Assembly (NCBI GenBank): GCA_902799985.1
Contig: CADCCR010000007.1
Coordinates: forward strand, 1-42,446
Origin: an uncultured Bacteroidales bacterium
GTDB lineage: Bacteria; Bacteroidota; Bacteroidia; Bacteroidales; Bacteroidaceae
Reading direction: 5' to 3'
Length of the DNA: 42,446 bases
Below the pieces are notes generated by a model. That model was not told where the DNA came from. It searched no databases and saw only the letters and a program-made list of their open reading frames with translations. Each line of letters starts with the position of its first letter. The stretch's first letter is position 1. The position numbers and the translations under genes are program-made. This document shows, piece after piece, positions 2,273 to 41,175 of the stretch.

Positions 2273-2653
2273 GCCGCAGCAAACCGGCACCGCCGCCACT
2301 TCCCTTTGGCGCCTCCGCCATTCCCCTTTGGCGCCATTCCCATCCCCCTCCGGACCCTTCCCCACGGCTCCGGATGGGGATTTTCGCTTCCTTGCTCCTT
2401 GCCCCTTCGCACAGATAACACTTAATATTGCTTTCTGGGGGAAAGCACAAAAGGTGCGAAAGACCACAGACGGGGTTTTCTTTCGTCTCTTCGAGACTTT
2501 TGGCAAGGCCCCAATGAGCTGCTACTCGTCAGAAACAACGATGGGAAAGGACATAAAAGGAAGAGGGAGAATTTTCCCCCGGACAGCAACAAAAACCTTT
2601 TCCTCGCTGAGACAAATCCGAGGCTCCACAGACATAAACTTTTTCAGTGGCAC

Positions 2654-2725
2654 GGAAATATATTTCAAAGGCTTGGAAATATATTTTAAAGCCTCTGAAA
2701 TATATTTCCAAGCCTTTGAAATAGT
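2654..2725. repeat. 21-bp tandem array with palindromic GAAATATATTTC core
   Basis: Three full units begin at 2654, 2675 and 2696, with a partial one at 2717. Each has the 12-base palindrome GAAATATATTTC (one unit varies to TTTTA), separated by AAGGCTT or AAGCCTC/T. Units 1 and 3 face each other, so 2661-2686 and 2698-2723 form perfect 26-base inverted arms around an 11-base spacer. It would fold as a cruciform or an RNA hairpin. There is no T-run, so it is not a standard terminator. Confidence 0.85.
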
Positions 2726-8420: not shown

Positions 8421-9242
8421 ATGAATACCGACTCGAAAGCACAGAAGGCGCGGCTGCTGGAAGTGTTCAGCTTCGCTAAGGATTTCTTCCGGCAGCACGG
8501 CTTCCGCTACATCGGCTGCGGCGGGACGGTGCTGGGTGCTGTCCGTCACAATGGTTTCATCCCCTGGGACGACGATATCGACCTCTACATGCCGCGACGC
8601 GACTACGAGCGTCTGCTGAGCCTGAAAGATGAGTTCCAAGGCACGGGCTACGAGCTGCTGAGCTGGGAGACAACGCCCGGCTACTACATCCCCTTTGCCA
8701 AGATATCGGACCTCCGGAGCACCGTCTGGGAGTTCAAGCACCATCCCTTCCTGTTCGGGGTCAGCATCGACATCTTCCCCCTCGACGAGTTCGACGAGCC
8801 GGACGACGTGATTACCGCCCGCCAGTACCGAAGCCACTACTACTTCGACAAATACATGAATGCCGTGAGCCACTACACCTTCGGCGACATGATGCACTCC
8901 CTCTGCAAGGGCGACGTGCATCGGCTCGGCGTTCAGGTGCTGAGCAAGTGGCGCGGACGCAATCCACAGAAGTATCTGGAAGCGTTCCGAAAGTTCGAGG
9001 AAACCTACAAGCATAACGGCGAAGGCCCCAAATGCGTCTGCGTGACGCAATGGGAAGGCCGCATCTTCCAGTCAGAATGGTTCAAGGATGTCATTGAAGT
9101 GCCGTTCGAGGACACCACGCTCATCATTCCACGCGCCTACGATGCCTACCTCCGACTGCTCTACGGCGACTACATGCAGCTGCCTCCCGAAGAGAAGCGC
9201 CTCAGCCATCCGCACTACTTCATTTCAATTCATAATTCATAA
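8421..9242 (+). CDS. LicD-family phosphotransferase
   Basis: 273 residues. The LicD signature is clear near the start: GCGGTVLGAVRHNGFIPWDD followed by DIDLYMPRRDY, with the metal-binding DDDID. LicD proteins move phosphocholine or other phospho-alcohols from CDP-linked donors to cell-surface glycans. The cytidylyltransferase two genes upstream could make such a donor. The last residues (FISIHNS) and the stop codon are encoded by an AATTCAT repeat element, so the natural C-terminus has probably been replaced or extended by the element. Confidence 0.88.
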   Translation: MNTDSKAQKARLLEVFSFAKDFFRQHGFRYIGCGGTVLGAVRHNGFIPWDDDIDLYMPRRDYERLLSLKDEFQGTGYELLSWETTPGYYIPFAKISDLRSTVWEFKHHPFLFGVSIDIFPLDEFDEPDDVITARQYRSHYYFDKYMNAVSHYTFGDMMHSLCKGDVHRLGVQVLSKWRGRNPQKYLEAFRKFEETYKHNGEGPKCVCVTQWEGRIFQSEWFKDVIEVPFEDTTLIIPRAYDAYLRLLYGDYMQLPPEEKRLSHPHYFISIHNS

Positions 9243-9315
9243 TTCATAATTCACAGTTATTTCATCTGTGAAGACTTAGGGCGTAGCCTAATTATGAATT
9301 ATGAATTATGAATTG
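9228..9315. repeat. AATTCAT element with inverted 7-bp repeat clusters
   Basis: Left cluster of about four AATTCAT-type units (9232-9253), a core of about 36 bases, and a right cluster of complementary ATGAATT units (about 9291-9315). The core end AGGGCGTAGCCTAATTATG recurs as AGGGCGCAGCCTAATTATG at about 20541-20559. Both convergent neighbours stop inside it: licD on the left and the YhaM-like gene on the right. Confidence 0.85.
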
Positions 9316-10175
9316 ATAGGTGCCACTTTCTTTGTTCCCAAGGCATTCACGTACTCCATGTCGCCGGCGCCTTCCAGGGTGTCGGTCTTGGCACTGAGGT
9401 TGTCGATGTGGTTCACGACGATGGCTTCCTGTGTGCATGGCACGACGGGACTGCCCCACTCGCGTGTGCCGTGATGCGCCAGGACGCAATGCACGATGCG
9501 CTTCGTCTCCTCCTTGTCGATGCCCTTGCTCTCGAGGATGTTCTGCAGCCAATGCGCCCCGATGTAGATGTGGCCGAGCAGGTACATGTCGGGCTGACTC
9601 TCGCCCGTCTTGCTGTACTCGTTCATCTTGCCGCAGTCGTGGAAGAGGATGGCCAGGATGCAATGTTCCACCTTCACCTCGTAGGGTAGGCAGGGATAGA
9701 GCCCCTCGAGCATCTTGAGCATCTGATGCGTGTGGTTCAGCAGTCCGCCGGGGAAAGCATGATGCATAGAAGTTGCAGCCGGATAGAGGCTGAACGGCTC
9801 GAAGAAACGCCCGGCAAATTCCTCGATGATGCTCATCAAGGCCTTGTCCGAGCAGTAGCTGAGCAGCTTCTTTATCGTGTCGTCCCACACGTCGCGACGA
9901 ATAGGTCGCGGCAACAGGTTGTAGAGGGGATGGTCGAGCAACGGCTCGCCACAGGCCTTGAGGTCGCGGAAGTCGCACGACTTCTTGCCGTCGTTGTCCT
10001 TGATGTTGTAGAAGACGACCAGGCCGCCCACCTGCGGTCCGGCAGTAGGCGGCATGTCCCAGACTGCCACATTGATGGTTTCGGTGAGCGTAGCCACCTT
10101 GAGCGAGGCATACGGTGCACCAGTGCGTGTCGTGCCGTTGCTACGGCTTATGACGAGGTATTCCTTGTTGTTCAT
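9306..10175 (-). CDS. YhaM-like OB-fold/HD-domain exoribonuclease
   Basis: 289 residues from the ATG at 10175 (MNNKEYLVIS); the frame stays open further upstream but only through repeat DNA. Residues about 1-90 resemble an OB-fold nucleic-acid-binding domain (APYASLKVATLTETINVAVW). An HD domain follows with HHAFPGGLLNHT, the metal ligands in LFHDCGK, and HHGTREWGSP. This order is that of Bacillus YhaM, a 3'-5' exoribonuclease with DNase activity. The last residues (APINS) come from the AATTCAT element at 9228-9315. The nuclease role is known for the family and inferred here. Confidence 0.8.
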   Translation of the reverse strand: MNNKEYLVISRSNGTTRTGAPYASLKVATLTETINVAVWDMPPTAGPQVGGLVVFYNIKDNDGKKSCDFRDLKACGEPLLDHPLYNLLPRPIRRDVWDDTIKKLLSYCSDKALMSIIEEFAGRFFEPFSLYPAATSMHHAFPGGLLNHTHQMLKMLEGLYPCLPYEVKVEHCILAILFHDCGKMNEYSKTGESQPDMYLLGHIYIGAHWLQNILESKGIDKEETKRIVHCVLAHHGTREWGSPVVPCTQEAIVVNHIDNLSAKTDTLEGAGDMEYVNALGTKKVAPINS

Positions 10176-10200
10176 CTTGTCCGCTGGTTTGTTTGTGAAG

Positions 10201-10209
10201 GCAAAGTTA
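10201..10209 (-). promoter_or_regulatory. -7 box of the YhaM-like gene
   Basis: TAACTTTGC on the minus strand, 26 bases before the ATG at 10175. It supports that start over the longer open frame. Confidence 0.65.
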
Positions 10210-10261
10210 AGCATTATTTCCCACATATCGGCAAAAAACGGCAAAAATATTGCGCCGCAAG

Positions 10262-10393
10262 GCCCAATCTTCCGTGCCGCGATGCCCAATCTTCCATGCC
10301 GTGAGGCCCAAACCTCCGTGCCGTGAGGCCCAATCTTCCGTGCCGCGATGCCCAATCTTCCGTGCCGTGAGGCCCAAACCTCCGTGCCTCAGG
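10262..10393. repeat. 22-bp tandem array A
   Basis: Six units starting at 10262, 10284, 10306, 10328, 10350 and 10372. Each begins GCCCAATCTTCCGTGCC (or GCCCAAACCTCC...) and ends CGCGAT or GTGAG. No unique spacers lie between units. The two unit types alternate in a higher-order pattern, suggesting duplication of blocks. Confidence 0.9.
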
Positions 10394-10399
10394 TCCGGG

Positions 10400-10597
10400 A
10401 AGCGCCAGGGGCTTCCAAAATAAGCGCCCTGCGCTTCGGCGATAAGCGCGAGGCGCTTCCGAAATAAGCACGAGGCGCTTCCGAAATAAGCACGGGGCGC
10501 TTCCGGAATAAGCACGGGGAGCTTCCGAGATAAGCACGAGGCGCTTCCGGAATAAGCACGGGGCGCTTCGGGAACAAGCACAGGGCGATTACGGTAA
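10400..10597. repeat. 22-bp tandem array B
   Basis: Eight recognisable units from 10422 on (10422, 10444, 10466, 10488, 10510, 10532, 10554, 10576) plus a degenerate start. The unit is AAGCACGAGGCGCTTCC followed by GAAAT, GGAAT or GAGAT. GCGCTTCC is the most constant part. The same family lies at 15867, 26907, 35918 and, inverted, at 41063. Confidence 0.92.
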
Positions 10598-10598
10598 T

Positions 10599-10714
10599 GT
10601 TCTGTCGGATTTGCAATCCGACAGCATTGAATATAAGCATTTGTAATGCGATAAAAGAATTTCGGGATTACAAATCCCTATATTCAAACGTGCGGATTAC
10701 AAATCCGCACGAAC
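10599..10714. repeat. Four-hairpin palindromic element, copy D1
   Basis: Four short inverted repeats in a row: GTCGGATTTGCAATCCGAC (10604-10622), GCATTTGTAATGC (10637-10649), GGGATTACAAATCCC (10664-10678) and a 21-base one around CGGATTACAAATCCG (10690-10710). The whole aligns with 27119-27237, including the linkers AGCAT-GAATAT and TATATTC. In both places a B-type unit lies directly to the left. It resembles REP-type palindromes, but no RAYT transposase is in the window. Confidence 0.85.
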
Positions 10715-10717
10715 GTC

Positions 10718-10915
10718 GCTGCTACTCCACACAAGCGCCACTGCTACTCCACACAAACACCGATGCTACTCCACACAAACGTCGCTGCTACTCCACACAA
10801 GCGTCGCTGCCACTCCACACGAACGTCGCTGCTACTCCACACAAACACCGATGCTACTCCACACGAACGTCGATGCTACTCCACACAAGCGCCACTGCCA
10901 CTCCACACGAACACC
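10718..10915. repeat. 22-bp tandem array C
   Basis: Nine gap-free units of exactly 22 bases (10718 to 10915). The constant part is TGCTACTCCACACAA (or TGCCACTCCACACGA), followed by a variable ACGTC, GCGTC, GCGCC or ACACC and a G/A first base. The last bases of element D1 (CACGAACGTC) already match the end of a unit, so the array seems to have grown out of that border. Confidence 0.93.
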
Positions 10916-10936
10916 TTTTCAGCCAGAAGGGTACAT

Positions 10937-10977
10937 AAAAAAACAATTCCCAGCCCATCGCTATGTGCCAGGAATTG
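10937..10977 (-). terminator. Intrinsic terminator of the candidate sRNA
   Basis: On the minus strand CAATTCC (10977-10971) pairs with GGAATTG (10950-10944), followed by seven T (10943-10937). It is the best intrinsic terminator in the window, and no coding gene ends near it. Confidence 0.75.
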
Positions 10978-11172
10978 AAAAAAAGAGATAAGTGAAAACA
11001 GAGTATTTTATGATTTTTGCGTATTCCGGTGTTTTTCTGTTAACTTCATTTTTCACCTTCCGAAAGTCGGTTGACATCTGACACAAATCAGAACACCAGC
11101 ACCAGACTGCACCGACTGTAGAAGATATCTGTGAAAAGTGTTTTTCTTCGGTATTCGGTTGAGATTTTAATT
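10937..11172 (-). ncRNA. Candidate small RNA, about 236 nt
   Basis: A minus-strand promoter (TTTG, 22 bases, TAACTTTGC at 11188-11180) and an intrinsic terminator with a T7 tract bracket about 236 bases with no credible gene. The longest ATG frame inside is about 43 codons. The body can fold: AGTCGGT (11065-11071) pairs with ACCGACT (11111-11117), and inside this TCTGA (11077-11081) pairs with TCAGA (11088-11092). A GTGAAAAGTG-type palindrome lies near the 5' end. I do not recognise RNase P, SRP, tmRNA or a riboswitch; 6S-Flavo-like RNA is one possibility I cannot test here. Confidence 0.5.
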
Positions 11173-11179
11173 TCCGAGT

Positions 11180-11214
11180 GCAAAGTTATATGCTTTTCTG
11201 CAAAGCACGCCAAA
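11180..11214 (-). promoter_or_regulatory. Promoter of the candidate sRNA
   Basis: TAACTTTGC (11188-11180 on the minus strand) with TTTG at 11214-11211, spacing 22. The next minus-strand gene starts 1 kb away, beyond a strong terminator, so this promoter must serve something between. Confidence 0.65.
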
Positions 11215-11275
11215 CAAAACGGACGGAAAAGTTTGCAAAACCTCTTTTTGTATGATTTATTTCAAAATAATACGC

Positions 11276-11284
11276 TAATTTTGC
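11276..11284 (+). promoter_or_regulatory. -7 box and Shine-Dalgarno of the AraC gene
   Basis: TAATTTTGC fits the Bacteroidota -7 box. AGGAG lies eight bases before the ATG at 11307, an uncommon Shine-Dalgarno for this phylum. Confidence 0.55.
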
Positions 11285-11306
11285 AAAAAGAATAGGAGAA
11301 AATACC

Positions 11307-12179
11307 ATGACAAAGAAAGAAATTCTCAAGGCCGTAGAACTTCACAGCAAGATTTTGGAGGAAGAAGGCATCCTGGTGCTCGACAAGATAACCAGACTGC
11401 CGGAACAGGGCGAACCGTTCATCTCGCACAACCTTGTCATAGGCCTCAACACTGGGGGCTCGGCCAAGGTGGAATACGACACACAGCCCATCGACTTCCT
11501 TCCCAACGACATGTTCGTGCTCATGCCCAAGCATACAATCAACATCCTGAACATCTCCGACGACTTCCATCTGATGGCCATTGTCGTCTCACCAGAAAAA
11601 TTCGACCGCATGAAGCACGACTACCCCGTCGGCTACCAGGAGAACCTGCGCTACCACCAGCAGGCTCACATCCACCTCACCAAGGACCAGGCAGAGAACA
11701 TGCAGGCGCTGATGAAGGTGTTGCACTCGGTCTGCTGGTCGAACAGCACGCGGAAGCTCCGGCATTACCACCACCTCTTGGAGGCAATGTTCACGCTGCT
11801 GCAGGACTATTACCAGGCCAGCGGCGCCATTATGCACAAGCCTTCGCCCCACGAGATGATACTGGCCCACTTCATCGACGCCGTCATGGAGCACTACGCC
11901 GAGTCGCGCGAAGTACGTTTCTACGCCAACCTCTTCTGCCTCTCGCCAAAACACTTCTCAGCCATCATCAAGCAGCAGTCGGGCAAGAACGCCAGCGACT
12001 GGATTTCGAGCTACGTCATCGCACAGTCCAAAAACATGCTGTGCTACCAGCACCAGCTCTCCATCCAGCAGATATCCCTGCGCCTCGGATTCCCCGACCA
12101 AGCTGCCTTCGCACGCTACTTCAAGACCTATACCGGCATGTCGGCACGCGAATTCAGAGACAAACGCCAGCCGCTGTAA
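11307..12179 (+). CDS. AraC-family transcription regulator
   Basis: 290 residues. The N-terminal half (about 20-160) looks like a cupin-type sensing domain (LNTGGSAKVEYDTQPIDFLP). The C-terminal ~100 residues carry two helix-turn-helix motifs: FYANLFCLSPKHFSAIIKQQ with SGKNASDWI, and LSIQQISLRLGFPDQAAFAR with YFKTYTGMSAREFR, the standard AraC signature. The ligand and targets are unknown. It stands alone with its own promoter and converges on pnp with a shared terminator. Confidence 0.92.
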   Translation: MTKKEILKAVELHSKILEEEGILVLDKITRLPEQGEPFISHNLVIGLNTGGSAKVEYDTQPIDFLPNDMFVLMPKHTINILNISDDFHLMAIVVSPEKFDRMKHDYPVGYQENLRYHQQAHIHLTKDQAENMQALMKVLHSVCWSNSTRKLRHYHHLLEAMFTLLQDYYQASGAIMHKPSPHEMILAHFIDAVMEHYAESREVRFYANLFCLSPKHFSAIIKQQSGKNASDWISSYVIAQSKNMLCYQHQLSIQQISLRLGFPDQAAFARYFKTYTGMSAREFRDKRQPL

Positions 12180-14581: not shown

Positions 14582-14612
14582 ATTCATAATTCATAATTCA
14601 TAATACATAATT
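14582..14612. repeat. AATTCAT 7-bp repeats between pnp and the TlpA-like gene
   Basis: Four ATTCATA-type units in tandem directly behind the pnp promoter. No opposite cluster is seen, so this is half of the element type at 9228 and 20445, or a remnant. Confidence 0.75.
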
Positions 14613-15866: not shown

Positions 15867-15965
15867 CTCCCTGCGCTTCTGGGATAAGCGCCTCGTACTT
15901 CCGAAATAAGCGCCTCGTGCTTCCGAGATAAGCGCCCTGCGCTTCCGGATTAAGCGCGTGCGGCG
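15867..15965. repeat. 22-bp repeat family B, second locus
   Basis: Three full units at 15886, 15908 and 15930 with partial units on both sides: AAGCGCCTCGTACTTCC, AAGCGCCTCGTGCTTCC, AAGCGCCCTGCGCTTCC. It lies between the ends of two convergent genes. Confidence 0.9.
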
Positions 15966-20444: not shown

Positions 20445-20601
20445 TTAATTCATAATTATTAATTCATAATTCATAATCGTTACTTCGCATCTCTCTAAGT
20501 TATGTCTCCGTTGTGAACTTTTTTGTCTGCATAGTTGCAGGGCGCAGCCTAATTATGAATTGTGAATTGTGAATTATGAATTGTGAATTATGAATTCCCT
20601 G
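20445..20601. repeat. AATTCAT element between the oxidoreductase and ACP genes
   Basis: Left cluster (20447-20476) with three AATTCATAATT-type units, a core of about 75 bases, right cluster (about 20551-20596) with five ATGAATT/GTGAATT units. AGGGCGCAGCCTAATTATG matches the core end of the element at 9228. It separates two genes of one proposed operon by 157 bases. Confidence 0.85.
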
Positions 20602-23611: not shown

Positions 23612-25624
23612 TTACTGTTCGGGGTTGGCAGGAGCTTCGTTCTGCTCGGGAGCAGACGGAGAAGCAATCTCTTCGTCGACGGCCTTGATCTTTTGTGCCA
23701 GGAGATTGAGTTCCTCGCGGAGTTTCTCCATTTTCTTGTTCATGGCGTCGACCAGAGAATTGCCCTTTTTGCTGCTGGCGGTGAGGAAGCCTATGTTGTT
23801 CTCATAGGTCTTGATTTCGCTCAGCATGCGCTCGTAGGCACGCTGCATGCGCTGGCGCTCATTGTCGAGCGAGCCTGCTTCCTTCTCGATTCTTTGCTGC
23901 AGTCCTGCACGGAAATTATTGAGGCGACGTCTGGTCTGACTTGCGCCGTAGGCTTCATAGAGCTTGTCGCAGATGGCACGATATTCGCGGTAGAGCGTCT
24001 CTTTGTCGCGGAAGGGGACGTGTCCCACCTCGTTCCATCGCTGCTGGAGTTCCTTGACCTGTGCGATGACGTTCTCGCCTTCCTTTTCGGCAAGTGCCTT
24101 GAGCTGAGCGATGATGTCGAGTTTCTGTTCCTTGTTGGCCTTCTCCTCGTTGCGACTCTCGGCAGTGGCTGCCTGTCGAGCCTCGAAGAAGCGGTCGCAT
24201 GCGGCGGTGAAGCGTTTCCACAGTTCGTCGCTGTACTTGCGTGGAACGGCTCCAATCTCTTTCCATTGCTTCTGCAGGTTGATGAGGATGTCGCCTGTGG
24301 AGCGCCATTCGGTGCTCTCCATGAGTGCTTCGGCTTTCTCCACGAGTTCCTTCTTCTTGGCGAGGTTTGCGCCAAGCTCTTCCTTGACGGTACGGAAGAA
24401 GGTGGTCTTCTTTTCGAAGAAAGCGTCGCAGGCCTGACGGAAACGCTCGAAGATGGCTGTGTTCATCTTCTGCGGGGCGAAGCCGATGGTTTTCCACTCT
24501 GCCTGCAGTTCCTTTATCTTCTGTGTGACGGTTTCCCAGTCGGCGAAGGTGCGGAGTCCGTCTGTCTCGATGGCTTCGAGCTGTTCGCAGAGTGCGGTCT
24601 TCTTGGCGAGGTTCTCCTCTTCGCGGGCCTTGATGGCCTCGAAGTGTGCCTGGTGCTTCTTGTTGATGACGGTGGATGCCTCCTTGAACTTGGCCCATAC
24701 GGTCTCGCGAATCTCTTTGGCTACGGGTCCGGTCTCCTTCCATTCCTGGTGGAGTGCCTGCAGCTGGTTGAAGGCTTGCAGCACGTCGGGGTTCTCGGCC
24801 AGGGCTTCTGCCTGTTCGATGAGGCGTGTCTTTATCTCGAGGTTCTTGCGGAAGTCGTAGTCGCGCAGTTCGTGTCCGAGTTTGAGGAGGTCGTAGTACT
24901 GTTCCACGTAGAGCTGGTAGTTCTTCCAGAGCTCGGTGGCACGTTCGGCTGGAACGGCCTTTATCTCTTTCCATTCGGCCTGGAGTGCCTTGAACTCGTC
25001 GAAGTTCTGGTTGGCTTCTTCGGGAGTGGATGCCAGTTGCTGTATGCGTTCGATGATTTGCAGCTTGCGCTGGAGGTTCTCCTGCTTCTGCTTTTCGATG
25101 CTCTCCTGCATGGCGGCCCGTCGGTCGCGAATGAGTTGCATTGCCTCGCGGAAGGCGGGTTCGGCGGGGTCTATCTGTGGCACGAACTTGTCCGCTTCGC
25201 CGCCTGCGTCGATGAAGGCTTGGTAGGCTTCCTGCATTTCGGCGTTGTGGAACTTGTAGAAGAGTTGCTTGAGGAGGGCGAGTTCCTGTTTGTCGCCCAC
25301 GTCGTCGCTGTTTGCGATTTCCTGCACACGGGCCACTACCTCTTCCTTCGTTCGGAAGGCTTGCTGCACGATGGCTTCCTCGGCCTCCGATGCCTCGGCT
25401 TCCGGCGATGCGGGTTCTTCGGCGGGGGCGGGTTCCTCGGCGGGTGCGGGTTCCTCGGCGGATGCTGGTTCCTCGGCGGGAACGGGTTCCTCGGCGGGTG
25501 CGGGCTCCTCTGCTACTGTTTCGTTGTTTACTGTGGTTGCTGTCTCGGGAGTCTGCTCTGCGGCAGTGTTCTCAGAAGGCTGCTCTACGGCAGCGGTTTC
25601 TTTAGTCTCTAAAGAGTCCATCAT
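23612..25624 (-). CDS. DUF349 coiled-coil repeat protein
   Basis: About 670 residues from the ATG pair at 25624/25621 (MMDSLETKE). The first ~90 residues are acidic and repetitive, with EEPAPAEEP units in tandem, probably disordered. The rest holds at least five DUF349 helical repeats, each with a W-K-E-I or W-N-E-V centre (LQAEWKEIKAVP, LHQEWKETGPV, LQAEWKTIGFAP, LQKQWKEIGAVP, LQQRWNEVGHVP). The family is common in Bacteroidota; its function is unknown. The end is Pro/Ala/Glu-rich. The number of EEPAPA units is likely to vary between strains. Confidence 0.9.
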   Translation of the reverse strand: MMDSLETKETAAVEQPSENTAAEQTPETATTVNNETVAEEPAPAEEPVPAEEPASAEEPAPAEEPAPAEEPASPEAEASEAEEAIVQQAFRTKEEVVARVQEIANSDDVGDKQELALLKQLFYKFHNAEMQEAYQAFIDAGGEADKFVPQIDPAEPAFREAMQLIRDRRAAMQESIEKQKQENLQRKLQIIERIQQLASTPEEANQNFDEFKALQAEWKEIKAVPAERATELWKNYQLYVEQYYDLLKLGHELRDYDFRKNLEIKTRLIEQAEALAENPDVLQAFNQLQALHQEWKETGPVAKEIRETVWAKFKEASTVINKKHQAHFEAIKAREEENLAKKTALCEQLEAIETDGLRTFADWETVTQKIKELQAEWKTIGFAPQKMNTAIFERFRQACDAFFEKKTTFFRTVKEELGANLAKKKELVEKAEALMESTEWRSTGDILINLQKQWKEIGAVPRKYSDELWKRFTAACDRFFEARQAATAESRNEEKANKEQKLDIIAQLKALAEKEGENVIAQVKELQQRWNEVGHVPFRDKETLYREYRAICDKLYEAYGASQTRRRLNNFRAGLQQRIEKEAGSLDNERQRMQRAYERMLSEIKTYENNIGFLTASSKKGNSLVDAMNKKMEKLREELNLLAQKIKAVDEEIASPSAPEQNEAPANPEQ

Positions 25625-26906: not shown

Positions 26907-27008
26907 GGCACGCGCTTCGGCAAGAAGCGGCGGGCGCTTCCGAAATAAGCGCGAGGCGCTTCCGAAATAAGCACGGGGCGCTTCCGGAATAAGCACGGGG
27001 CGCTTCCC
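26907..27008. repeat. 22-bp repeat family B, third locus
   Basis: Units at 26925, 26947, 26969 and 26991 with GCGCTTCCGAAAT or GCGCTTCCGGAAT, same orientation as at 10422. A further diverged unit (CGCGAGACGCTTCCC) lies at about 27098-27119, directly before element D2. Confidence 0.9.
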
Positions 27009-27035
27009 AAAGCGACCCCCCTCCGTCTCCCCCGA

Positions 27036-28390: not shown

Positions 28391-28470
28391 GGGTAGAGGT
28401 TAGAGAATACCATCTGTCCTTTACCTGCAAAAACAATCCTCTAACCACTAACCTCTAACCACTAACCACT
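28391..28470. repeat. Element with inverted CTAACCT/AGAGGTTAG repeats
   Basis: Left cluster GGGTAGAGGTTAGAG (28391-28405), a 31-base core, and right cluster of CTCTAACCACTAACC-type units (28437-28467). It has the same design as the AATTCAT and GAAGATAG elements with another repeat sequence. It lies between cysE and the methyltransferase gene. Confidence 0.7.
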
Positions 28471-28479
28471 ATACAAACA

Positions 28480-33916: not shown

Positions 33917-33929
33917 ACAGTCCATAGTT

Positions 33930-34035
33930 CGTAGTTCATAGTTTATGGTTCTACGCTAAGCTCGAACGCCGGCCTCGCCCTAAAGTCCAGCGAAGAAGAT
34001 AATTATGAATTATGAATTGTGAATTATGAATTAAA
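33930..34035. repeat. Short-repeat element between purD and the membrane-protein gene
   Basis: Left cluster ATAGTTCGTAGTTCATAGTT, a core of about 55 bases, right cluster ATTATGAATTATGAATTGTG then AATTATG. The arms are complementary if G-U pairs are allowed (AGTTCAT with ATGAATT), so the element may work or be maintained as RNA. Confidence 0.65.
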
Positions 34036-35917: not shown

Positions 35918-36013
35918 AGCCGCGTGCGCTTCCAAAATAAGCGCAAGGCGCTTCGGCGATAAGCGCGAGGCGCTTCCAAAATAAGCACGAGGCGCTTCCG
36001 AGATAAGCGCGAG
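35918..36013. repeat. 22-bp repeat family B, fourth locus
   Basis: Four units with GCGCTTCC (AAGCGCAAGGCGCTTCGG, AAGCGCGAGGCGCTTCC, AAGCACGAGGCGCTTCC) fill the space between the tadA and M20 stop codons, same orientation as at 10422. Confidence 0.9.
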
Positions 36014-36018
36014 GGGGT

Positions 36019-37140
36019 TTATGCCGAGAGCAACGCCATGTAGGTCTCTATGGCCTGACGTATTTCATCAATCTCCACGTATTCGTCGGCGGAATGGCTG
36101 CGGCTGCTCTGGCCCGGACCCATCTTCAGACTGGGGAACGGCATGAGGGCCTGGTCGCTGAGAGTGGGCGAACCGAACGGCTTGCCGCCGAGCCCGATGA
36201 TGCGCTGCACGAGGGGATGACTCGCGTCGATGCCCGAGGAGCCGAGACGGAAACTGCGGGCCTTGACTTCCGAACGGACGTGCTGACAGATGATGTCGTA
36301 GAGTTCGCGGTTCGTGTAACACTCGTTCGAACGCACATCCACGGTGAAGGTGCAGACGTCGGGCACCACATTGTGCTGCGTGCCGGCATTGACGATGGTC
36401 ACCGACATCTTCACCGGTCCCAACAGGGGCGATACTTTCTCCCACTGATACTGGCGGAACCACTGGATGTCGTCGATGGCATGGTAGATGGCATTGTCGC
36501 CTTCGTTGCGTGCCGCGTGTCCCGCCTTGCCGTGAGCCGTCACGTCGAGCACCATCAGTCCCTTCTCGGCGATGGCCGGCTGCATGCCCGTCGGCTCGCC
36601 AACCAGCGCCACATCAATCCATTTGCCATTTGACAATTTACTGTTTACCATTTTTTGGAGCAGCGGCAGGACGCTCTCTATGCCGTTCTTCCCGCTCACT
36701 TCCTCTTCCGCACTCGCCAAAAAGACAAGATTGTAAGGCCCCGTTCCCTCTTTGGGGGAGTGCTCCTGTCTCTGGGCATCCGTTGTCAGGGCAGCAAAGA
36801 CGTGAAGCAATGTCACCAGGCTGGCACCATCATCATTCGCACCGAGCCCGTAGATGCGGCTGCCTTCGCGTGTTGCCTTGAACGGGTCCCGCTGCCAGCC
36901 AGCCACGGGTTTCACGGTGTCGATGTGGGCATTCAGCAGGAGTGTCGGCTTCGCGGCGTCGACGTTCGGCTGGACCGACCAGAGGTTATTGCCGTCGCGC
37001 CACACCTCAAGCCCCAGCTCATCCTGCATATACGCCTGCAGCAAATCGGCGGCTGCCGTTTCTTCCCTGCTCACGCGCGGCACCTCGATGAGTCGGCACA
37101 GCAGCTCCACCGCCTTCTCATTGATTAATTCATAATTCAT
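36019..37140 (-). CDS. M20-family amidohydrolase (ArgE/DapE type)
   Basis: 373 residues. Metal ligands: LNAHIDTVKP (H and D), GANDDGAS (bridging D), ASAEEEVSG (catalytic E and ligand E), VALVGEPTG, and the last His in SRSHSADEY. This matches ArgE/DapE-type deacylases; in Bacteroidota a relative removes the N-succinyl group in arginine synthesis, but the substrate is not certain here. The first codons (MNYELINE) come from an AATTCAT element. Two stretches look inserted: RQEHSPKEGTG, made by a G/C palindrome (36746-36776), and MVNSKLSNGK, made by AT-rich repeat-like DNA (36621-36655). Confidence 0.85.
   Translation of the reverse strand: MNYELINEKAVELLCRLIEVPRVSREETAAADLLQAYMQDELGLEVWRDGNNLWSVQPNVDAAKPTLLLNAHIDTVKPVAGWQRDPFKATREGSRIYGLGANDDGASLVTLLHVFAALTTDAQRQEHSPKEGTGPYNLVFLASAEEEVSGKNGIESVLPLLQKMVNSKLSNGKWIDVALVGEPTGMQPAIAEKGLMVLDVTAHGKAGHAARNEGDNAIYHAIDDIQWFRQYQWEKVSPLLGPVKMSVTIVNAGTQHNVVPDVCTFTVDVRSNECYTNRELYDIICQHVRSEVKARSFRLGSSGIDASHPLVQRIIGLGGKPFGSPTLSDQALMPFPSLKMGPGQSSRSHSADEYVEIDEIRQAIETYMALLSA
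36746..36776. repeat. G/C-rich palindrome inside the M20 gene
   Basis: CCCTCTTTGGGGGAG, in frame on the minus strand, encoding about HSPKEGTG just before the conserved strand NLVFLASAEEE. Confidence 0.6.
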
Positions 37141-37160
37141 AATTCACAATTCATAATTTC
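37124..37160. repeat. AATTCAT repeats providing the M20 start codon
   Basis: Four AATTCATAATT-type units. On the minus strand they read ATGAATTATGAATTAAT, so the first codons of the M20 frame are repeat DNA. An opposite cluster (ATTATGAATTATGAATTAAT) lies at 37269-37299, so 37124-37299 may be one longer element. Confidence 0.8.
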
Positions 37161-37169
37161 TAATTAAAG

Positions 37170-37178
37170 GCAAAGATA
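37170..37178 (-). promoter_or_regulatory. -7 box of the M20 gene
   Basis: TATCTTTGC on the minus strand, 30 bases before the ATG at 37140. Confidence 0.55.
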
Positions 37179-37253
37179 AGCAAAAATAAAGAATGAAGAA
37201 TGAAGAATGAAGAATTTTTTCTCGTTTCGCTCCTTTCTTTTCACATTTTTTCG

Positions 37254-37261
37254 TATCTTTG
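37254..37261 (+). promoter_or_regulatory. -7 box of the acyl-CoA ligase gene
   Basis: TATCTTTG, about 46 bases before the ATG at 37307. A T-rich tract lies at the -33 position. ATGAATT repeats fill the leader. Confidence 0.55.
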
Positions 37262-37268
37262 TCCTGCG

Positions 37269-37299
37269 ATTATGAATTATGAATTAATAATTATGAATT
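37269..37299. repeat. ATGAATT repeats in the acyl-CoA ligase leader
   Basis: ATTATGAATTATGAATTAAT followed by AATTATGAATT. Complementary to the cluster at 37124-37160 across about 110 bases that hold both promoters. Confidence 0.75.
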
Positions 37300-37306
37300 A
37301 TCGATA

Positions 37307-41062: not shown

Positions 41063-41175
41063 GCGCCGAAGCGCCTCGTGCTTATTTCGGAAGCGCCTCG
41101 TGCTTATTTCAGAAGCGCCTCGTGCTTATTTCGGAAGCGCCCTGCGCTTATCTCGGAAGCGCACGGACTTATTTC
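41063..41175. repeat. 22-bp repeat family B, fifth locus, inverted
   Basis: Five units read GAAGCGCCTCGTGCTTATTT on the plus strand, the reverse of the other four loci. It lies between two co-directional genes, ThuA and CYTH. Confidence 0.9.

Follow-up and report, generated by a model that had tools for sequence, protein, structure and literature searches.

Why should three tandem arrays with different sequences, located in one and the same intergenic region, all be built from units of 22 bp? This question is raised by a site in the window, i.e. the whole 42,446-bp stretch of DNA analysed here, which is contig 7 of a 3.05-Mb draft genome (215 contigs, 79% complete; G000 in the following). By PNPase, the nearest named loci stem from Prevotellaceae, Bacteroidaceae or Bacteroidales, and many of them are of ruminant origin. 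The first-pass annotation had proposed a shared constraint, be it two DNA turns per unit, a protein array or a copying mechanism with a fixed step, and had considered the site the strongest candidate for an undescribed system in the window.

Three unrelated arrays with one period

Arrays A, B and C reside between divergent genes for an HD-domain protein and an AraC-type regulator (Table 1). Their reported make-up of six, eight and nine units of 22 bases without spacers is exact in the raw letters. Units start at 10259, 10281, 10303, 10325, 10347 and 10369 in A, at eight positions from 10408 to 10562 in B and at nine positions from 10708 to 10884 in C, and each of the 5 (A), 7 (B) and 8 (C) spacings amounts to exactly 22. 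TRF assigns period 22 to positions 10254-10388 (A), 10411-10587 (B) and 10704-10912 (C) and also finds a higher-order period, which is 66 bp for A and B and 88 bp for C; units 4-6 of array A nearly repeat units 1-3 (66 bp). Over positions 10250-10920, identity at lag 22 is 68%, compared to a maximum of 33% at any lag in 300 shuffles.

The sequences of the three arrays do indeed differ. Unit similarities of 0.41 (A-B), 0.45 (A-C) and 0.45 (B-C) equal those of shuffled pairs (median 0.45, 95th percentile 0.55), and the units are thus unrelated. One DNA-binding protein reading all arrays by their sequence is thereby ruled out. The suggested protein array becomes unlikely insofar as a single sequence-reading protein is meant, since units differ among loci, and may still apply in the form of a protein that reads shape or hairpins. 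A comparison of the region with its own genome returned 61 matches including itself, and the other 60 fall on array B and/or the adjacent hairpin block or their immediate edges, indicating that B is dispersed through the genome while A and C are local. A CRISPR array can be dismissed because the units of A, B and C abut and unique spacers are lacking. Intrinsic terminators in the arrays were likewise rejected: positions 10150-11350 contain two terminator-like sites, neither of them inside the arrays, at a shuffle mean of 2.0. Rfam yielded two matches up to an E-value of 1, both far under the gathering scores.

Table 1. Positions of tandem arrays, hairpin block and flanking genes in the window
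Feature	Position	Strand	Description
22-bp array	2286..2335	no strand	unit GGCGCCGCCGCCACTCCCCTTT; 2.3 copies; TRF
21-bp array	2654..2723	no strand	unit GGAAATATATTTCAAAGCCTT; 3.3 copies; dispersed, nearly self-complementary family
HD-domain protein gene	9306..10226	-	own gene call; true start probably ~10175; diverges from arrays
Array A	10259..10390	no strand	6 units x 22 bp; consensus GAGGCCCAATCTTCCGTGCCG+1; TRF, raw-letter spacing
Array B	10408..10587	no strand	8 units x 22 bp; GGCGCTTCCGAAATAAGCACG+1; dominant dispersed 22-bp family of the genome
REP-type hairpin block	10593..10715 (about)	no strand	CTGTCGGATTTGCAATCCGACAG, GCATTTGTAATGC, GGGATTACAAATCCC, GTGCGGATTACAAATCCGCAC; between B and C
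Array C	10704..10912	no strand	9 units x 22 bp (TRF 9.5)
AraC-type regulator gene	11307..12179	+	on the far side of the arrays from the HD-domain gene
B-family 22-bp array	15869..15957	no strand	between convergent genes; TRF
B-family 22-bp array	26912..27011	no strand	between divergent genes; TRF
B-family 22-bp array	35926..36014	no strand	fills convergent gap; 9 and 4 bp to the two stop codons
B-family 22-bp array	41068..41162	no strand	stop codon 13 bp before it

The window harbours further repeats. Arrays of period 7 with varying units (AATTATG, ATTCATA, CTAACCA and others) are present at 9227-9314, 14582-14612, 20446-20596, 28438-28471, 33919-34033 and 37126-37301. A GC-rich 18-bp repeat, the period being a multiple of three, occurs in six copies at 25403-25510 near the start of a minus-strand gene. 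The 21-bp family of GGAAATATATTTCAAAGCCTT is also found at L009 15165, L013 16048, L015 11076, L017 4481, L018 5562 and L020 7319 with 3.2 to 3.5 copies per place; most of these arrays are nearly self-complementary, and similar ones exist in genomes G240 and G224.

The period is common to the family, the sequence is not

Our sample of the own genome comprised 269 kb, made up of the window and 12 stretches that were not chosen by sequence matches. Among its intergenic TRF arrays with a period of at least 10, 24 of 50 have period 22 and 8 of 50 period 21. The corresponding numbers are 26 and 7 of 49 for the genus (31 stretches, three of them match-chosen), 8 and 2 of 10 for other genera of the family (13 stretches) and 27 and 18 of 121 for 80 named loci around the PNPase gene. 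Outside the family, intergenic 22-bp arrays were absent from our samples of the order (0/7 arrays, 15 stretches), the class (0/2, 11 stretches) and the phylum (0/4, 9 stretches), and a single stretch from E. coli contained no intergenic array at all; as these samples are small and hold few arrays, the limit to the family is provisional.

To count each unit family only once, we grouped units with periods of 15-30, leaving out the three match-chosen stretches. Period 22 then accounts for 11 of 18 clusters in the own genome, for 14 of 19 in the genus and for 29 of 58 when other genera and named loci are taken together, and period 21 for another 2 of 18, 3 of 19 and 12 of 58, respectively. Binomial values for these counts presuppose evenly spread periods and serve as a rough guide. 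A broad spread of periods, which would have spoken against the first-pass annotation, is not observed. The shared constraint that it proposed is real, given that 21-22 bp dominates among intergenic periods of at least 15 in the own genome, in its genus and in further family members; period 7 is also very common (36 of 92 intergenic arrays in the own 269-kb sample). Joining units at a similarity of 0.65 leaves many separate clusters, the maximum for shuffled pairs (n=1500) being just under this value. Hence, the sampled genera of the family possess intergenic minisatellites that have a length in common, 22 bp and less often 21 bp, and not a sequence. The peak is already apparent below 2.6 copies, where period 22 applies to 18 of 41 clusters and period 21 to 8, counts that refer to standing arrays and not to dated events.

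A TRF-free lag scan for short intergenic duplications (periods 10-60, 90% identity) bears out this census in part. In the own genome and the genus, including the three match-chosen stretches, 16 of 62 duplications are at 22, two at 21, one each at 20, 18 and 16, and most others at 10-15. Of these 16, 14 belong to longer arrays, and the remaining two lie in L012 and L068. For named loci and other genera, the scan gave 7 of 94 at 22 and 8 at 21, and outside the family 0 of 17 at 22 with one each at 21 and 20. It is hardly credible that the common period results from chance, bias of the repeat finder or misassembly. The genome is admittedly a draft, 79% complete and in 215 contigs, but the spacing is exact in raw letters, the lag scan does without TRF, and 22-bp intergenic arrays occur in many separate assemblies, including those of named isolates such as Mediterranea massiliensis, and were absent from the samples outside the family.

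Coding arrays do not share the single peak. Their 34 clusters are distributed over periods 15 (6), 16 (1), 18 (3), 21 (8), 22 (6), 24 (7) and 30 (3), with some of those at 21 and 22 perhaps situated at gene-call borders, and any claim of a fixed step is therefore not genome-wide. By our own simple gene caller, 80 of the 82 period-22 arrays in 41 stretches of the own genome are not called genic (nine of them at stretch ends) and two are genic.

A common period that shared sequence cannot explain and that already exists in two-copy arrays favours a duplication process measuring two helical turns. We give roughly even chances to an explanation in which local tandem duplication with a two-turn step, a mutational step that would have to be postulated, occurs recurrently, after which arrays grow in register and are selectively retained.

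Array B, gene ends and inverted repeats

Selection for spacing competes with this explanation and is best judged from the B family. In 41 stretches of the own genome, 28 of which are match-chosen, the B cluster makes up 54 of 90 intergenic arrays of period 15-30, a number into which chaining draws D-type units; a direct count of motifs gave 48 B-type arrays among 72 intergenic ones of period 22. The relatives G240 and G224 contain 70 and 45 matches to the window region, many of them over B. The similarity between B and D units (0.68) exceeds the shuffle maximum of 0.64, showing that both are related and that the period is inherited in some arrays. At L040 4493-4720, a D-type 22-bp array (GCACGTGTCGTTGGCCAACTAA) runs in register into a B-type array, which suggests replacement of units without loss of phase.

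We analysed the placement of B arrays that have genes called on both sides, mostly in match-chosen stretches. Where these genes are codirectional, 19 of 25 arrays are nearer to the stop codon of the preceding gene. Convergent genes flank 14 of 43 B arrays, compared to 44 of 296 among all intergenic regions of at least 60 bp. B is an old dispersed family that often resides just after stop codons. Its units lack a strand preference (13 versus 12), arguing against a signal in RNA of one strand.

An internal inverted repeat at p<0.05 was detected in 36 of 116 intergenic arrays of 20-23 bp and in 6 of 101 control arrays, members of the same family not being independent in this comparison. The arrays concerned come from the own genome (9/32), the genus (12/29), other genera (1/8) and named loci (14/47). 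Stem length exceeds that of permuted arrays (4.74 versus 3.61, sd 0.10), and stem columns vary less between units, the difference amounting to 0.148 at a null value of 0.016 (sd 0.017) in the 70 arrays with enough copies and to 0.128 at a null value of 0.017 (sd 0.021) in 44 arrays from other genomes. As the permutation keeps columns and not their order, effects of neighbouring columns remain in these differences. Among units of other species, several are self-complementary, as is the 21-bp family. In three hand-picked palindromic arrays of other species, folding z values range from -5.7 to -7.8, while those of B are -2.2 and -2.5. The idea that every unit is fully self-complementary was rejected, with A, B and C all scoring under their shuffle means.

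The better conserved inverted repeats imply that selection contributes, and it could itself set the spacing. Repeats of many lengths would then arise and only those with inverted repeats two turns apart be kept, because the latter lie on the same face of the DNA or form fitting hairpins that serve as transcription stops, in mRNA 3' ends or for the docking of proteins at gene ends. The enrichment, length and conservation of the stems, the position of B near stop codons and between convergent genes and the strong folding of the palindromic arrays from other species all agree with this idea. Nevertheless, we regard it as rather unlikely that selection determines the period: arrays A and C depart from the gene-end pattern, being free of dyads and located between divergent genes, they fold no better than shuffles (z -0.64 and 0.59 for A, 0.26 and 1.85 for C), and the 21-22 peak is present in two-copy arrays already.

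The REP-type hairpin block and a RAYT transposase

The earlier description of the arrays as lying side by side needs correction for B and C, which are separated by a REP-type hairpin block whose 3' end (CACGAAC) is contained in the first unit of C. The block is repeated in its own genome, in G240 and in G320, and folds with z values of -6.6 and -9.1 for the two strands relative to shuffles. Loci with Y1 transposase matches were checked for neighbouring hairpins at L218, L280, L281 and L285, leaving out L219, L282, L283, L284 and L286. Similar hairpins occur beside RAYT genes in L218, L281 and L285, the last two being genes of relatives; none were found near L280 (G013), which has a stronger Y1 match. 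The product of a gene adjoining such hairpins reaches 98.4 bits with NF047646 (REP-associated tyrosine transposase), the cut-off being 80, and carries the motifs NHLH, FWQ and YIHQNP. These match the published motif table for REP/RAYT subclass 2.6, which lists NH[LIV]H, WQ and YIH[QN]NP (PMC6006769). The likeness covers the block at 10593-10715 only and does not extend to the 22-bp arrays (PMC6006769). As is characteristic of REP/RAYT systems, the block is a dispersed palindromic repeat and also adjoins a gene for a REP-type Y1 transposase. Judging from its sequence, it is a putative REP element belonging to a RAYT, by which it may be cleaved or mobilised. In relatives, whole REP hairpin blocks are tandemly repeated at L275 8788-9306 (175 bp), L266 11168-11547 (198 bp) and L267 10783-11270 (154 bp).

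It is conceivable, if most improbable, that the 22-bp arrays travel with the REP element as cargo, or arise as by-products of it and its RAYT transposase, in the way of a minisatellite inside a MITE. BrickBuilt provides a precedent, combining a 23-nt minisatellite with a MITE (PMC4596501). Some hairpin blocks do adjoin B arrays, and hairpins of the same kind accompany RAYT genes. In the own stretches, 17 of the 72 intergenic arrays of period 22 have a block no more than 250 bp away, namely 10 of the 48 B-type arrays and 7 of the remaining 24. Yet 55 of the 72 have no block within this distance, and in stretches that were not match-chosen, only 4 of 22 period-22 arrays do, indicating that a block is no prerequisite for the arrays. 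Furthermore, G320 has 83 matches to the region, none of which covers array B among the matches listed, and G224 bears a B array without any block at the window site.

Histories of arrays A and C

None of the loci L057-L216 carries both neighbours of the window site, and the orthologous site was sought via the AraC gene instead. For A, B and C, respectively, it contains 6, 8 and 9 copies in G000, 1, 0 and 0 in G240 and 1, 8 and 0 in G224, where the eight B units are of a variant specific to that genome. With one A-like unit present in both relatives, array A most simply grew in this lineage from one pre-existing copy, the presumed ancestral state judging from these two relatives. Array C has no copy at the orthologous site of either relative. 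Arrays of 22 bp starting at the end of the hairpin block exist at four loci (window C, L024, L025 and L028) with units that mix block and flank, those of L025 and L028 being alike. At such junctions, spacing is 44 bp in L040 and L041 and 21 bp in L037, and numerous further copies of the block end without an array. A 44-bp array, exactly twice 22, is present in seven copies at L268 6142-6448 in G240. Two DNA turns per unit and fixed-step copying, both suggested by the first-pass annotation, are viable in the light of the single-copy origin of A and of block junctions that step by 22 with different local sequence.

Two further candidates were set aside. The array at L024 9304 is absent from both relatives but resembles stretches elsewhere in them and may thus have arrived whole, so that it is not counted as a birth. 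The array at L022 9256 was not used, the site in G224 holding other DNA and the right-hand anchor not being found in G240.

Alternatively, most arrays might descend from one ancient 22-bp satellite that passes on its length, whereas concerted evolution rapidly alters the sequence of its unit. In L039, five matches at a spacing of exactly 22 occur in G240 and a related unit is present twice in G224, and the period persists in G240 and G000 in spite of strongly different units; the site can reflect either one old array or separate births. Common descent would also fit the relatedness of B and D units and their meeting in register in L040 as well as the G224-specific variant of B at the window site. 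All the same, we consider it improbable, as two relatives possess the A unit just once, the junction arrays are built from ends of the hairpin block and local flank, and units fall into many separate clusters at 0.65 similarity.

Relation to known repeats and a possible mechanism

Heptamer and other short tandem repeats are intergenic and diverse in sequence, with units in the range expected of simple slippage. Repeats of period 7 are seen here too and have a shorter unit than the 22-bp arrays. Tandem duplications are normally thought to be broad in length and set by local microhomology. The nearest published object that we found is BrickBuilt, which is described as a 23-nt intergenic minisatellite in a MITE of Porphyromonas gingivalis with predicted stem loops, a repeat number that varies among strains and dispersed copies (PMC4596501). 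It has one unit sequence in one species, a leader, a tail and small inverted-repeat ends, and the article reports no BLAST matches outside P. gingivalis (PMC4596501). As in BrickBuilt, the intergenic arrays are tandem and spacerless with a unit near two helical turns, and predicted stem loops, dispersed copies and a repeat number that varies among strains are further points of agreement; unlike in BrickBuilt, where there is one unit of 23 nt, the length is 22 (or 21) and many unrelated units are spread across genera (PMC4596501). A detailed comparison of one site (G224 versus G240) showed neither MITE ends nor a BrickBuilt-like leader or tail, and the B array joins local flank. The arrays are not a system confined to this locus, and a related intergenic minisatellite has already been published (PMC4596501). 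Among the papers listed in searches of open-licence literature, we found no report of a family-wide period of 21-22 bp or of a length rule for unrelated units across genera.

Returning to recurrent two-turn duplication, an array would start when about 22 bp of intergenic DNA, whatever their sequence, are duplicated in tandem. Candidate processes that measure two turns would be staggered breakage with fill-in and slippage along a duplex held by protein. Arrays would then grow and homogenise in register through slippage or unequal recombination, as is suggested by the higher-order repeats of 66 and 88 bp. Where units contain inverted repeats near gene ends, they would preferentially be retained and sometimes disperse, as in the case of B. 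Insertion of the RAYT-linked REP hairpin element would have been a separate event that provided the boundary from which C grew. Somewhat more tentatively, we propose that members of the family have a process by which intergenic DNA is duplicated two turns at a time irrespective of its sequence, so that new 22-bp satellites are continuously made from arbitrary sequence. Selection for spacing and inheritance from one ancient satellite are live rivals, and all three may act together.

If lengths peak sharply at two helical turns irrespective of sequence, some physical ruler would be implied, either in the duplication process or in the function of the arrays. In these samples, the peak is seen in one bacterial family only and mainly in intergenic DNA. 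The question of a ruler is testable in genetically tractable laboratory Bacteroides, and the arrays may serve as strain-typing loci in abundant gut bacteria.
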